Of a stretch of DNA of 42,391 nt, positions 25,971 through 34,541 are shown one piece after another. Made by a program: the position numbers and the translations under genes. Source of the DNA: an uncultured archaeon (GTDB lineage Archaea > Halobacteriota > Methanosarcinia > Methanosarcinales > Methanoperedenaceae). A model generated the notes under the pieces. That model was given only the letters and a program-made list of their open reading frames with translations. It ran no database searches and was not told the origin of the DNA. Positions within the stretch are counted from its first letter, which is position 1, and every line of letters starts with the position of its first letter. The stretch covers positions 1-42,391 of the forward strand of contig CABMCA010000102.1 of NCBI GenBank assembly GCA_902384525.1, written 5' to 3'.

Positions 25971-27029
25971 ATGGAACGTATCAAAGTCCTGCTGATTGAA
26001 GATAACCCGCCAGATGCTGTATTTATAGAGGAAATGCTGGCTGAGGCAAAAGAATTTTCGTTCGATGTGGAGTGGAAAGAAAAGCTTTCGATTGGACTGG
26101 AACGCCTTGCTAAGAAAGGGGTTGACGTAGTTCTACTGGATCTCAATCTACCTGACAGCAAGGGCTTTAGTACTTTTACAAAAACGCTTGCTCAGGCACC
26201 TGAAATACCAATCATAATATTAACCGGTCTTGATGATGAAACGCTTGCAATCAGAGCTGTTAGAACAGGCGCACAAGATTATCTGATCAAGAAACATGTA
26301 GATAGAGGCCTGCTGGTACGTACCATTCGCTACGCCATTGCGCGCAGGATGGGAGGAGAGAGGCGCTTCACAATAGAGGAATTGAAAGAATATGATGGAA
26401 AAGAAGGAAAGCCAGCGTATGCAGTCCTCAAAGGAAAAGTCTATGACGTTTCAAGCAGTCCTCTCTGGAAAAATGGAATTCATGCAGGTAAACACTCCGC
26501 AGGTGTTGATTTAACAGAGAGCATGTTAAGTGCGCCTCATAGTGAAGAAATATTATTAAAATTCCGCATCATCGGAGAATTGGGCAAGGAAAAGTCTTTA
26601 GGACAGAAACTGTTGCTGAAATTAGAGACGTTGCATCCTCATCCAATACTGGTTCATTTTCCCATAGCTTATTCTATCGGTGTTTCACTATTATCGCTTC
26701 TATACGTTTTCACAGGCAAAATTCCTTTTGAAATAGGATCATATTACATGCTTTTTCTGGGATTTTTATCAACTCCTTTTGCTGGACTCTCTGGCTTTTT
26801 TTCCTGGAAAGTCACTTACGAAGGGAAGATGACTAAAATTTTCGCAAGAAAAATAATATTTACTGTTGCGTTGATTGCTGTTATCACTACATGTTTTGTA
26901 TGGCGAACTCTGAATCCAGATGTACTTGTACCAACAGGCTTAAACTACGTTTACTTAACGCTGGTATTGAGTTTAGTACCTATAGTCACGATTCTTGGAT
27001 ATGATGGAGGAGAAATAGTTTATACTTAA
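25971..27029 (+). CDS. receiver domain fused to cytochrome b5-like domain and DUF2231-type membrane domain
   Basis: This 352-residue protein starts at ATG 25971, one nt after the previous stop. Residues 4-125 are a receiver: IEDNPPD, Asp57 in DVVLLDLNLPDSKG, ILTGLDDE and DYLIKKHVD. Residues 133-203 resemble a short cytochrome b5-like heme-binding domain: FTIEELKEYDGKEGKPAY, VYDVSSSPLWKNG, and histidines 171, 175 and 190 (candidate heme ligands, the last in SAPHSEE). Residues 217-350 resemble DUF2231: LHPHPILVHFPIAYSIG followed by four membrane helices, with histidines 222, 224 and 229. The frame is open throughout with no sign of a sequencing join. Phosphorylation at Asp57 may alter the heme or membrane part. 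The fusion is the end point of the kinase cassette; its redox partner is unknown. Confidence 0.85.
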   Translation: MERIKVLLIEDNPPDAVFIEEMLAEAKEFSFDVEWKEKLSIGLERLAKKGVDVVLLDLNLPDSKGFSTFTKTLAQAPEIPIIILTGLDDETLAIRAVRTGAQDYLIKKHVDRGLLVRTIRYAIARRMGGERRFTIEELKEYDGKEGKPAYAVLKGKVYDVSSSPLWKNGIHAGKHSAGVDLTESMLSAPHSEEILLKFRIIGELGKEKSLGQKLLLKLETLHPHPILVHFPIAYSIGVSLLSLLYVFTGKIPFEIGSYYMLFLGFLSTPFAGLSGFFSWKVTYEGKMTKIFARKIIFTVALIAVITTCFVWRTLNPDVLVPTGLNYVYLTLVLSLVPIVTILGYDGGEIVYT

Positions 27030-27679: not shown

Positions 27680-28425
<746 letters not shown>

Positions 28426-28439
28426 CTTAAATCAACTCC

Positions 28440-30742
<2,303 letters not shown>

Positions 30743-30746
30743 GAAT

Positions 30747-31064
30747 ATGAAGATGATACGTGCAATAATAAGGCCAAACAAGGAAGAAAAAGTTGTTGAG
30801 CACCTGGAAAAAGAAGGGTTTGTGTCCCTCACCAAGATGAACGTGTTCGGGCGCGGCAAGCAAAAAGGGATCAGGGTAGGGACGGTATGTTACGACGAGC
30901 TGCCCAAAGTGATGCTGATGCTTGTTGTGAAGGATGAAGAAGTAACAAAAGCTGTCAACGTCATCCAGAATAGCGCACGAACCGGGAATATCGGCGACGG
31001 TAAGATATTCGTGACCGATGTTTCGGAAGCGTATACTGTGAGGACAGGCGCATCGGGATTATAG
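30747..31064 (+). CDS. nifI1: nitrogenase regulatory PII-like protein NifI1
   Basis: This 105-residue PII-family protein follows nifH by 4 nt, the standard position of NifI1. It has MKMIRAIIRPNKEEKVVEHL, a T-loop region GRGKQKGIRVGTVCYDELPK shorter and different from GlnK, and the TGNIGDGKIFVTDV B-loop. In methanogens NifI1 and NifI2 form a complex that binds nitrogenase component 1 and switches it off when ammonium appears, with 2-oxoglutarate relieving this. A Shine-Dalgarno (GGAGAGGTGA) overlaps the nifH end. Confidence 0.95.
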   Translation: MKMIRAIIRPNKEEKVVEHLEKEGFVSLTKMNVFGRGKQKGIRVGTVCYDELPKVMLMLVVKDEEVTKAVNVIQNSARTGNIGDGKIFVTDVSEAYTVRTGASGL

Positions 31065-31072
31065 GTGAAAAT

Positions 31073-31450
31073 ATGAAGGAAGTTATCGCTATAATCCGAA
31101 GGCACAATTTGCAGGAGACCAAGGCAGGTCTTCTTGGAATAGGTATTCCAGCGATCACAATGGTGAGCGTGGAAGGACGAGGCAAACAGAAAGGACTGCC
31201 TGGCTGGAATTATGAGCTTGATCCCGCATTAATGGAACTGGAGGAGAAAAATACTGGTGTCAGCATGCGCTTTATCCCAAAAAGGATGATTTCAACAGTG
31301 GTCGAGGATGAGGATGTACAAAAAGTGGTTGAGACCATAATTAGAACGAATCAGACAGGGCATATTGGAGATGGCAAGATCTTCGTGTGTCCTGTGGAAG
31401 GTGCAATGAGAGTAAGAACAGGAGAGAACGGAGAACAGGCGATCAAATAA
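31073..31450 (+). CDS. nifI2: nitrogenase regulatory PII-like protein NifI2
   Basis: NifI2 (125 residues) pairs with NifI1 to switch nitrogenase off after an ammonium shift. It starts MKEVIAIIRRHNLQETKAGL, has VEGRGKQKGLPGWNYEL and an enlarged T-loop insert (about residues 45-75, ending FIPKRMISTVVEDED), and the B-loop TGHIGDGKIFVCPV. The longer loop is typical of NifI2 and distinguishes it from NifI1. It starts 8 nt after nifI1. Confidence 0.95.
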   Translation: MKEVIAIIRRHNLQETKAGLLGIGIPAITMVSVEGRGKQKGLPGWNYELDPALMELEEKNTGVSMRFIPKRMISTVVEDEDVQKVVETIIRTNQTGHIGDGKIFVCPVEGAMRVRTGENGEQAIK

Positions 31451-31490: not shown

Positions 31491-32861
31491 ATGACAACAA
31501 TATTACCTGAATGCGACATACCCATACCGCAGCGTAAGCCACACATTATTTGTCATGATCCGGAGAATATCGTATTGCCCATGTGCAATATCCAGACAGT
31601 CCCGGGCGACATGACCGAGCGCGGCTGCACGTTCGCAGGATGCAGGGGCGTAGTTGGCGGGCCTGTAAAGGACGCAATACAACTGGTGCACGGACCGATT
31701 GGATGCGCCTACTATACATGGGGCACGCGCAGGAACCTCTCAGACACGAAGCTGCACAGAAAGTACTGCTTCAGTACTGACCTGACAGAAGAAAGTGTGA
31801 TATACGGCGGTGCAAAAAAGCTGCTAAATTCTATTATAGAGTCGCATGAACTCTTTCCGGAAGGAAAAGCGGTATTCGTGTATTCCACATGCGTGGTCGG
31901 GCTGATCGGTGATGATACCGAAGCCATATGCAAGCAGGCCCAAGAAAAGATCGGGATACCCGTGATACCTTTCCATTGCGAAGGTTTCAGGGGCGTGAGC
32001 CAGTCCCTGGGGCATCACATCGCCAACCGGACCCTATTTGAGAAAGTTGTTGGAACAGAAGAACCGCAAGAGACCACACCATACGACATGTGCATAGTCG
32101 GTGAATTCAACATCGACGGCGATGCGTGGATCATCAAGCCGTTGTTTGAACGAATGGGCGTGAGGGTTCTCTCGGTATTTACAGGCAATGCTTCATATAG
32201 TGATATTCCACCCATGCACAGGGCAAAGCTGAATATCGTGCAGTGCCAGAGGTCATCCACCTACATCGCAAAGATGATCCAGGACAAGTACGGAGTCCCA
32301 TATATCAACGTATCCCTGTTTGGCATGACTCAAACTGCACAAGCTCTTCGAGATGTGGGAAAATTCTTCCGTCTTGAAGAAAATGCAGAAAAAGTAATAG
32401 CAGAAGAGCTTGCATTGTACCAATCCAGGATCGATCACTATAGGAAGAAACTTGAAGGTAAGAAGTGCTTCATATACCAGGGAGCTCCGCGCGCCTGGCA
32501 CTGGATTGGACCAATGCTGGAACTGGGCATCGAAACTATCCTCACTGCTACCACGTTCGGTCATAAGGACGACTATGAAAAAATAATGGAAAGGGCAAAG
32601 CCAGGACATATCTGCATAGATAATCCAAATGCTCTTGAAATAGAGGAATATCTGGTAAAGCTCAAGCCTGATTTTTTTATCGGAGGATTGAAGGAGAAAT
32701 ACCTGACCTACAAGCTTGGCATTCCCTTTATCAACGGCCATTCCTACGAAGAAGGACCTTATGCAGGTTTTGAGGGATTCGTGAATTTCGCAAAGGACAT
32801 TGATGTTGCAGTGAACAGCCCTGTGTGGAAGTTCATAAACGAGCCACTGGAGGTGAAGTAA
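31491..32861 (+). CDS. nifD: nitrogenase component 1 alpha subunit NifD
   Basis: At 456 residues this NifD lacks the insert of clostridial forms. P-cluster ligands are Cys46 (ERGCTFAGC), Cys72 (HGPIGC) and Cys134 (YSTCVVGLIGDD). Cofactor ligands are Cys252 (NIVQCQRSSTYI) and His417 (FINGHSYEEGPY). Residues around the cofactor follow the Mo enzyme: Arg80-Arg81 (WGTRRN), Gln171 and His175 (FRGVSQSLGHHIAN). But other parts resemble V/Fe-only enzymes: AYYTWGTRR, the loop Q-G-A-P-R (330-334) with Pro where MoFe has Leu, AWHW, and FGHKDDYEK. No anfG/vnfG delta subunit is present. It is a true N2-reductase subunit by its ligands; metal type is uncertain, with Mo more likely. Confidence 0.93.
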   Translation: MTTILPECDIPIPQRKPHIICHDPENIVLPMCNIQTVPGDMTERGCTFAGCRGVVGGPVKDAIQLVHGPIGCAYYTWGTRRNLSDTKLHRKYCFSTDLTEESVIYGGAKKLLNSIIESHELFPEGKAVFVYSTCVVGLIGDDTEAICKQAQEKIGIPVIPFHCEGFRGVSQSLGHHIANRTLFEKVVGTEEPQETTPYDMCIVGEFNIDGDAWIIKPLFERMGVRVLSVFTGNASYSDIPPMHRAKLNIVQCQRSSTYIAKMIQDKYGVPYINVSLFGMTQTAQALRDVGKFFRLEENAEKVIAEELALYQSRIDHYRKKLEGKKCFIYQGAPRAWHWIGPMLELGIETILTATTFGHKDDYEKIMERAKPGHICIDNPNALEIEEYLVKLKPDFFIGGLKEKYLTYKLGIPFINGHSYEEGPYAGFEGFVNFAKDIDVAVNSPVWKFINEPLEVK

Positions 32862-34220
32862 ATGGCTTTGAACGAGAGTTCTGCACCTATTAAGACGGTT
32901 CGTAAAACTCGAAGCGTCACGATCAATCCGCCCAGGATGTGCCAGCCTATGGGCGCCATACTTGCTTACATGGGAGTTAACGGATGCGTTCCGCTGGTGC
33001 ATGGTTCCCAGGGATGCAGCACCTACCCCCGCTACAATATCGCGCGCCATTTCAGGGAATCAGCAGAAGTTGCAGTTTCCTCTCTGGCTGAGGATGCTGC
33101 CGTATATGGCGGGGCCAGGAACCTGACAGAAGCCATAAAGAACATCAAGTCCAGGCTGAACCCCGCTGCCATTGGCATCTGTACTACGTGCATGAGCGAG
33201 ACCATAGGCGACGATGTGAAACTGATATCAAAGAAGGCGCTGACCGATGATACTATGAAGATATTCCCTGCATCTACGCCAAGTTATGTTGGAACGCATC
33301 TTACAGGATATGATAATGCCCTGAAGACGCTTGTAGAAACAATGGCAGTCAAGGGTGAGCCAAATAATAAAATAAACATTATCACGGGAATAATCAACCC
33401 GGGCGACATCAGGGAGATAAAGAACATGCTGCGATTAATGAATGTGCAAACCATTTTCCTTTCAGACATCTCCGAAACCCTTGATACTCCCATATTGCCT
33501 GGCGGGCACAAACCATTACTGCCTGACGGAGGGACAAGTCTTACCGACATCGCGGATTCTGCAAATTCACTGGGTACAATCGCGATTTGCAGGACAGCAG
33601 GTTCTGCCGCAACGTATCTTCAGAACAAGTTCAAAGTCCCTGCTGTGCTTGCTCCGGCGCCCATAGGGGTTGCAAACACTGACAAGTTCGTGCAAAACAT
33701 CAGCATGTTAAGTGGCGCATCGATCCCTGATGAGATCAAGAAAGATCGCGGGCGCCTGATAGACAGCATGGTGGACGTTCATCACTATATGTACGGGCGA
33801 AAAGTCGGGATTTTCGGCGACCCTGATCTTGTGTCAGCCATCGTAAGATTCTGCGCTGAAGCAGGGATGAACCCCACCGTTGCTATGACTGCAACGAAAC
33901 ATAAGGATTTTGCGCCTGACATAAAGGCAGTAAATGGTGAATATAAGACAGATACGCAGATCCTTGAAGGTACAGACCTGTACGAATTCCACGAGGTTGT
34001 AAAAGCGCAGGGGGCAGAACTGATACTTGGCAACTCAAAGGGCAAGGACGTTGCAGATGATGAGGGTGTTCCGCTCGTGCGCTTTGGATTCCCTGTTTAT
34101 GACCGTGTTGGTGTGTACAGGTATTCCATTATGGGATATAATGGTTCGATATACCTGCTTGACCAGATGACTAACGCCATCCTGGGACACAGGTATGACC
34201 CGGATAAGCTGCACCAGTAA
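32862..34220 (+). CDS. nifK: nitrogenase component 1 beta subunit NifK
   Basis: NifK (452 residues) begins directly after the nifD stop. P-cluster cysteines are Cys27 (PPRMCQPMGAI), Cys52 (VHGSQGCSTYPR) and Cys110 (TTCMSETIGDD), with a serine in STPSYVGTHLTG at the place of the P-cluster serine. RGRLIDSMVDVHHYMYGR, GDPDLVSAIVRF, LILGNSKGKD and LVRFGFPVYDRVGV are typical NifK. It is shorter than Azotobacter NifK (523), lacking the long N-terminal extension, as in many anaerobe and alternative enzymes. With NifD it forms the alpha2beta2 core. Confidence 0.95.
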   Translation: MALNESSAPIKTVRKTRSVTINPPRMCQPMGAILAYMGVNGCVPLVHGSQGCSTYPRYNIARHFRESAEVAVSSLAEDAAVYGGARNLTEAIKNIKSRLNPAAIGICTTCMSETIGDDVKLISKKALTDDTMKIFPASTPSYVGTHLTGYDNALKTLVETMAVKGEPNNKINIITGIINPGDIREIKNMLRLMNVQTIFLSDISETLDTPILPGGHKPLLPDGGTSLTDIADSANSLGTIAICRTAGSAATYLQNKFKVPAVLAPAPIGVANTDKFVQNISMLSGASIPDEIKKDRGRLIDSMVDVHHYMYGRKVGIFGDPDLVSAIVRFCAEAGMNPTVAMTATKHKDFAPDIKAVNGEYKTDTQILEGTDLYEFHEVVKAQGAELILGNSKGKDVADDEGVPLVRFGFPVYDRVGVYRYSIMGYNGSIYLLDQMTNAILGHRYDPDKLHQ

Positions 34221-34241: not shown

Positions 34242-34541
34242 ATGGAATACATAACCGGAATAACTGCATCAGGCGGGAGCTGGACTCCTGCCTTTGTTGT
34301 AAGAAGCAATATCAACGACTGCGGATGCTGCGGAAAATGTTTCAAGATATGCGGACGCGGGGTGTTCGAATATATCGACCATCCCAATGCTGATGACCTG
34401 TGCGGCGCAAAAGTCATGACAGTGGCGCATCCGGATAACTGCATCGGCTGCGGCGCCTGCGCGCGCGGGTGCCCGAAGAAGAATATTGTGTGCGAACCGA
34501 AGGTCATGTTTGGGGTAAGAGAAGGATCGGAGGTAACATAG
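34242..34541 (+). CDS. nif-associated ferredoxin (ferredoxin III type)
   Basis: This 99-residue two-cluster ferredoxin resembles the nif-specific ferredoxin III. The N terminus SGGSWTPAFVV matches that group. Cluster motif 1 is DCGCCGKCFKICGRG (Cys27, 30, 33, 37, with an extra Cys29), motif 2 is NCIGCGACARGCPKKN (Cys67, 70, 73, 77), and further cysteines stand at 54 and 84. It probably feeds electrons to NifH or assists cofactor assembly. It follows nifK by 21 nt and is the last gene of the nif run; nifE, nifN and nifB do not follow. Confidence 0.9.
   Translation: MEYITGITASGGSWTPAFVVRSNINDCGCCGKCFKICGRGVFEYIDHPNADDLCGAKVMTVAHPDNCIGCGACARGCPKKNIVCEPKVMFGVREGSEVT

Follow-up and report, generated by a model that had tools for sequence, protein, structure and literature searches.

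What kind of nitrogenase is encoded by an operon whose catalytic subunit, NifD, joins active-site residues of the molybdenum (Mo) enzyme to a loop, QGAPR, resembling one of the vanadium (V) enzyme? A first-pass annotation raised this question for a 42,391-nucleotide stretch of archaeal DNA (hereafter the window, meaning the whole stretch). It suggested V/Fe-type features in an enzyme of a deep-branching or uncharacterised class.

The operon and its host

The window is contig C102 of a draft genome of 2.9 Mb (130 contigs, 97% complete), which we examined by family searches. Ca. Methanoperedens sp. BLZ2 has a NifD 98% identical to the one encoded here, and nearly all of the next ~20 named matches come from Methanoperedens, indicating that the host is Ca. 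Methanoperedens (ANME-2d). A Borg origin was considered and set aside: the region carries chromosomal-type genes (for example, putative S8e-like and PdxT-like ORFs) and has a G+C content of 37-48%. Among viral contigs, 25 stretches matched a pattern and none of them encodes a relative.

On the plus strand, nifH, nifI1, nifI2, nifD and nifK are followed by a ferredoxin-like gene in a single operon. nifH (29918..30742) encodes an Fe protein of 274 aa, starts at 29918 with an ATG preceded by GGAGG, and scores 449 bits with the TIGR01287 nifH model (cut-off 394). The PII-type nitrogenase regulators nifI1 (30747..31064, 105 aa) and nifI2 (31073..31450, 125 aa) were recognized by PII models and by their position in the HI1I2DK order. 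The frame at 31491..32861 is real and complete; it encodes the catalytic alpha subunit NifD (456 aa), carries every residue named at first pass, and was assigned from the alignment map and a TIGR01862 score of 582 bits (cut-off 486) versus 36 bits with TIGR03282 (CfbD). nifK (32862..34220) encodes the beta subunit of 452 aa, in which the P-cluster cysteines Cys27, Cys52 and Cys110 correspond to beta Cys70, 95 and 153 and are kept in 47/47 rows examined. Directly 3' of nifK, the ferredoxin-like gene (34242..34541, 99 aa) matches TIGR02936 fdxN_nitrog with 63 bits, below the cut-off of 81; a ferredoxin gene adjoins nifK in most Methanoperedens loci. Divergent from nifH, on the minus strand, lie glnK (27680-28018), a GNAT acetyltransferase gene (28015-28425) and amtB (28440-29756).

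The nifH TATA box is surrounded by an inverted repeat, TTGCCATGG/CCATGGCAA, which was considered as an operator and rejected because it is full only in the window, half present in L034 and absent from the other 18 relatives examined. Upstream of nifH, the Methanoperedens loci L035-L053 share a conserved TATA-box stretch, roughly TACTGAAA-TATA-CAGTAGGCTGYCGTTTACC, just 5' of the ribosome-binding site, of which the window has a diverged form. Elsewhere in the window, a single protein (25974-27029) combines a response-regulator receiver domain, a cytochrome b5-like domain and DUF2231.

Cofactor surroundings and the QGAPR loop

Residues are given in Azotobacter (Av) numbering, with the 9nsv sequence as the ruler for alignment. 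Five residues that had been said to follow the Mo enzyme, Arg80, Gln171, His175, Cys252 and His417, align with R96, Q191, H195, C275 and H442, and the motifs FRGVSQSLGHHIAN, AYYTWGTRR, AWHW and FGHKDDYEK are each found in the translation. McGlynn 2012 distinguishes Mo from V/Fe enzymes by positions 65, 69, 96, 275-278, 380 and 428 (PMC3578447). The window NifD has A, G, R, CQRS, T and K there; five of the six are Mo-type, one is neutral and none is V/Fe-type. The uncharged Thr380 is the lineage's own residue, as in McGlynn's 'uncharacterized' group. All P-cluster and FeMo-co ligands are conserved in NifDK. An identity as a Group IV nitrogenase-like protein (CfbD) was rejected, as the best model is not CfbD and the cofactor ligands are not lost. 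In two ANME-2/GoM-Arc1-type NifD sequences (L023, L025), extra residues stand beside the Arg96 position (TWGGGRRQNLSD versus TWGTRRNLSD in the window).

The QGAPR loop (NifD residues 330-334, codons 32478..32492, plus strand) aligns with Av 355-359. We surveyed it in 136 rows, of which 115 were sorted into groups and 20 NifE-like rows and a duplicate of the window were left out; the labels Nif-I, Nif-II, Mb-Mc and F-Mc were assigned in this analysis from loop, gene order and relatives. QGAPR occurs in 23/24 Methanoperedens rows (the other has QGGPR) and in all 14 rows from ANME-2, GoM-Arc1 and other archaeal seep lineages, indicating that the loop is not a chance occurrence. Pro358 is found in all rows of both these sets (24/24 and 14/14) and likewise in bacterial seep-type (2/2), Bathyarchaeota (2/2), Hydrothermarchaeota-like (4/4), Chloroflexi (23/23), F-Mc (35/35, not independent rows because they include truncated second copies, L114-L123 versus L100-L112), Mb-Mc (4/4, from genomes within the order of G040) and Vnf (2/2) rows. 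The sole Anf row and the sole Nif-II row have Ser at this position, and the three Nif-I rows have Leu. Pro358 is thus fixed in every sampled group outside Nif-I/II except Anf, and because it is common to that whole side it characterizes these groups and does not indicate vanadium. Being fixed across seep, Chloroflexi, F-Mc and Mb-Mc rows, it was rejected as a V mark; the Pro358 loop is a lineage trait and no pointer to V or Fe.

The likeness of QGAPR to the TGGPR of V enzymes holds for Pro358, which is common to both, but not for position 355 (Gln versus Thr) or 357 (Ala versus Gly). Ala357 is not V-like: it was seen in the seep group, in 3/23 Chloroflexi rows and in 5/35 F-Mc rows. WHW is also common to the F-Mc and Chloroflexi enzymes, and Mb-Mc has the Pro together with WH. 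Table 2 of McGlynn 2012 prints the loop motif of the uncharacterized group as ixxGxPrxWH (PMC3578447). Four Archaeoglobaceae loci (L107, L109, L110 and L111) encode an F-Mc-type nitrogenase with Ala357 that is 75-77% identical to PDB 9spz, and L109 also carries a second D/K-like pair.

A sharper distinction lies at residue 355, which is Gln in all seep, Hydrothermarchaeota-like and Chloroflexi rows, Glu in the two Bathyarchaeota rows, and V, A, T, P or S elsewhere. Under the thresholds used, Thr63, Gln355 and Tyr432 are the only three positions in the 64-row set that separate the groups lacking NifEN (31 rows) from other nitrogenases (26 rows); Thr63 adjoins the P-cluster ligand Cys62. Gln355 (Glu in Bathyarchaeota) is the true hallmark of the NifEN-less lineage. 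Residue 355 is presumably close to FeMo-co, and the TGGPR loop is, we assume, the holder of carbonate in the VFe enzyme; carbonate takes the place of a belt sulfide (S3A) in FeV-co. It is a speculative, rather doubtful proposal that Gln355 is a functional signature of a NifDK acting as its own cofactor scaffold. If it were correct, Gln355 would assist in taking up NifB-co, or in holding homocitrate or molybdate, while the cofactor matures within the catalytic protein.

The AlphaFold model of NifD (mean pLDDT 80.6; mean 83 for block 331-340, under 50 for residues 70-105) has the nitrogenase fold, with Z up to 42. Among the 50 matches listed, the best were VFe chains (Z 42.0 and 41.2), with 39.7 for the best MoFe chain; 9spz is not one of these 50, to which we attach no meaning. 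These VFe matches, together with the TGGPR-like Pro loop and the WHW in common with Vnf, speak for dependence on V or Fe (or on two metals) in an enzyme that retained Mo-like residues, which we nevertheless consider highly improbable. VFe chains lead in Z by a small margin that reflects the overall fold; Lys96, Cys65, Leu/His69, Lys380 and Gly428 are not found in the window NifD; and whole-chain identity is 42% to Vnf and 39-40% to Anf versus 40-41% to Nif-I and 45% to Nif-II. As the model holds no cofactor, it cannot tell whether carbonate would fit. The absence of a delta subunit, noted at first pass, was borne out genome-wide: PF03139 (VnfG/AnfG) gave 0 matches in the whole genome, with a positive Methanosarcina acetivorans control.

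Phylogeny, gene order and spread

We built a NifD tree from 64 hand-picked rows by a careful method, with NifE as outgroup, and a NifK tree from 48 hand-picked rows by a quick method (L063 having no usable K). In the NifD tree, the NifD of the window groups with Methanoperedens (100/100), and the Schekmanbacteria and SZUA-191 copies join next (100/100). One split separates Nif-I plus Nif-II (100/99), and F-Mc, Mb-Mc, Vnf and Anf form a separate set (97/96); the software flagged possible long-branch attraction (of Mb-Mc to Vnf/Anf, and between NifE rows). The NifK tree contains the same groups. In AU tests, forcing Methanoperedens together with Nif-II cost 100.6 lnL units (p-AU 4e-42) and forcing it together with Vnf and Anf cost 48.0 lnL units (p-AU 0.0004). 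Both arrangements were rejected; the first rejection rules out membership of the usual Mo-type clade of methanogens as far as Nif-II is concerned, and the second counts further against a V- or Fe-dependent enzyme. Joining all NifEN-less groups (seep and Chloroflexi side) in one clade cost 1.0 lnL unit and was not rejected (p-AU 0.453), and the NifD tree does not fix the order of the Methanoperedens, ANME-2 and Chloroflexi-Hydrothermarchaeota sets.

The window NifD and NifK belong to the published 'methane seep/ANME' group. The idea of a deep-branching or uncharacterised class stands in that the NifD of the window falls outside Nif-I/II and outside Vnf/Anf/F-Mc/Mb-Mc in the tree, but the class had already been published, as the 'uncharacterized' group of McGlynn 2012 (PMC3578447) and as the 'methane seep group' of Chadwick 2022, in which ANME carry NifHI1I2DK without nifEN (PMC9012536); it is also treated in Garcia 2020. 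Methanoperedens nitrogenase genes are mentioned in PMC11264602 and PMC8561730, and nifHDK, on Borgs too, in PMC9605863.

Methanoperedens and ANME loci read H-I1-I2-D-K, an order published in PMC9012536; Bathyarchaeota and, with one exception (L085), Chloroflexi read H-B-D-K where the contig reaches, as published in PMC7216921. We found H-I1-I2-B-D-K in Hydrothermarchaeota-like loci (L074, L075, L076 and L080), in bacterium SZUA-191 (L055) and in one Chloroflexaceae locus (L085), no K being seen on the short contigs of L076 and L055. The Schekmanbacteria locus (L054), near a contig end, has I1-I2-B-D-K. As a middle form linking the archaeal and Chloroflexi orders, H-I1-I2-B-D-K fits a common origin, which the tree alone cannot prove. 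The NifD proteins of Ca. Schekmanbacteria (L054, 2074-3426) and SZUA-191 are 70-71% identical to that of the window and sister to Methanoperedens; their loci place B between I2 and D. They likely reflect gene transfer between domains or misbinned contigs. Neither the Gln355 signature nor the H-I1-I2-B-D-K order came up in the portions of the literature searched, including PMC12903952, and the copies in Schekmanbacteria and Bathyarchaeota did not either. Within that scope, what is new here is the Gln355 mark, the H-I1-I2-B-D-K link and the Methanoperedens-like copies on two bacterial contigs; the class itself is known.

Cofactor synthesis and relation to known systems

Three PF00148 genes occur in the genome of the window, D, K and a CfbD-like gene, and neither nifE nor nifN is among them. 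Seep-type DK is present in 19 of 24 Methanoperedens genomes (this one plus 23), and a NifEN pair in 0/19 of these, many of which are 95-99% complete and one of which is in ~10 contigs. In 17 of the 19, D, K and the CfbD-like gene are the sole PF00148 genes; the other two, G008 and G010, have one further nitrogenase-like pair, in G008 ~26% identical to the window NifD and nearest to PDB 9d9u. In G008 (L181, 2461-7205), and similarly in G010, this pair is part of an additional nitrogenase-like H-D-K set that comes with a separate NifB-like gene; the nearest solved structure is 9d9u/9fmg, which we take to be methylthio-alkane reductase. Among the remaining five genomes, G002 has the CfbD-like gene only, G011 one fragment and G023 (74% complete) none. 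G020, also without seep-type DK, has nitrogenase-like genes (L182) and 9 PF00148 matches, most on C57. G004 lacks seep-type DK and carries Nif-II-type NifHDK with NifEN (L178, 1597-8907); here a canonical enzyme has apparently taken the place of the NifEN-less one. An ANME-2a genome is listed with NifE and NifN beside NifK (PMC12622379), and, together with G004, this indicates that the canonical pathway is also open to the lineage of the host.

In a wider set of 18 named genomes, in which G085-G087 are the same as G015, G009 and G018 of the Methanoperedens set (identical coordinates), NifB was found in 18/18. PF00148 genes number two, and no more, in each of the Schekmanbacteria, Bathyarchaeota, Hydrothermarchaeota and BMS3Abin16 genomes; the extra pairs in seven Chloroflexi genomes are, we expect, Bch/Chl. 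There are 11 in a Clostridia genome (G102), where a NifE-like gene follows K. That this is a canonical Mo nitrogenase, its nifEN just missing from a draft in 130 contigs, is hardly credible, despite the draft state of the genome, when set against the 0/19 count, the two-gene genomes with related DK and the published absence of nifEN in ANME (PMC9012536).

The genome's NifB lies on another contig (C112) as an open frame of 304 aa without a NifX part. Of five HMGL-like genes, the short L185 is a fair candidate for homocitrate synthase, although below every curated cut-off. PF13531 has a single match in the genome, a TupA-like oxyanion (tungstate) binding protein (L189, G000:C43:17398-18051; 184 bits versus a cut-off of 400), and no ModA/WtpA-type molybdate protein was found by this family.

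How might such a reduced set yield an active enzyme? For Roseiflexus, from the nearest related group, an active enzyme is obtained from NifB, NifH and apo-NifDK once SAM, homocitrate and molybdate are supplied, NifEN is unneeded, and vanadate or iron gave no rise in activity (PMC11573651). The latter result, with the spread of the loop and WHW over F-Mc and Chloroflexi enzymes (Pro and WH also in Mb-Mc), leaves the likeness to V/Fe enzymes noted at first pass unsupported in a functional sense and further disfavours a V- or Fe-dependent enzyme. Taking the minimal gene set and the Mo-type cofactor surroundings together, and reasoning from Roseiflexus at 55% identity, a self-scaffolding Mo nitrogenase is the most likely reading. 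We thus infer that the window probably encodes a Mo nitrogenase of Ca. Methanoperedens, from the NifEN-less seep/ANME lineage, whose NifDK also matures its own cofactor. NifB would make the Fe8S9C precursor, which, in the absence of a NifEN receiver, would pass directly into apo-NifDK; there, NifH, molybdate and homocitrate from a candidate AksA-like homocitrate synthase would complete the cofactor. The matured NifDK would itself reduce N2, and NifI1/NifI2 would switch it off on the return of ammonium.

Two further readings accord with the lack of NifEN. That a simpler or mixed cofactor (e.g. an unfinished Fe8S9C or Fe-only form) is present, with Mo inserted only partly, is unlikely: the missing dedicated scaffold, the TupA-like protein as the only oxyanion protein found, and the low acetylene reduction kept by Roseiflexus without Mo (14 versus at least 130 nmol/min/mg, PMC11573651) point toward it, but the heterometal surroundings are Mo-type and the same report describes a strong Mo preference. 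That the enzyme no longer fixes N2 and acts on another substrate, as do methylthio-alkane reductase and CfbCD, is very unlikely. Distant nitrogenase-like enzymes of other function do exist, in Methanoperedens too (G008, G010 and G020), but here the catalytic ligands and P-cluster cysteines are all kept, NifI1/I2 and AmtB/GlnK adjoin, NifD resembles true nitrogenases much more closely than it does 9d9u or CfbD, and uptake of 15N2 by ANME-2 with a seep-group nitrogenase is cited in PMC9012536.

The first-pass observation was exact and its sense of an unusual class sound; the class had been described, and the hint at a metal is a shared trait. NifEN-free cofactor synthesis has so far been shown only for thermophilic Roseiflexus, and Methanoperedens, a freshwater methane oxidiser available in laboratory enrichments, would allow it to be tested in a mesophilic archaeon. 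The reduced gene set is widespread, in Schekmanbacteria, Bathyarchaeota, Hydrothermarchaeota, Chloroflexi and ANME, and its spread is relevant to the question whether NifEN is younger than NifDK and to how small a gene set would be worth transferring to crops.

Compared with known systems, the enzyme of the window differs from canonical Mo nitrogenases (Nif-I/II), which have nifEN. VnfD (5n6y) shares GxPR, WHW and the whole fold, but has Lys96, Cys65, Leu69, Lys380, Gly428, Thr355 and a delta subunit, where the window has R, A, G, T, K, Gln355 and none. The F-Mc enzymes (Moorella, Methanothermococcus; 55% identity to PDB 9spz) share Pro358, WHW, Thr380 and Arg96; they differ in Val355 (35/35 rows), in the NifE-like gene kept at many loci, and in being set with Mb-Mc/Vnf/Anf in the NifD tree. 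The Chloroflexi NifHBDK, including that of Roseiflexus, also lacks NifEN, has NifB, and shares Gln355, Pro358, Thr63, Tyr432 and the Mo-type ligands, but is 55% identical, has the order H-B-D-K, mostly lacks NifI, and carries Gly357 in 20/23 rows (the Roseiflexus genus rows reading QGGPR) instead of Ala357. With the ANME 'methane seep group', gene order, absence of nifEN, ligands and loop type are all the same; nothing sets the enzyme of the window apart from this group, to which it adds one more species.
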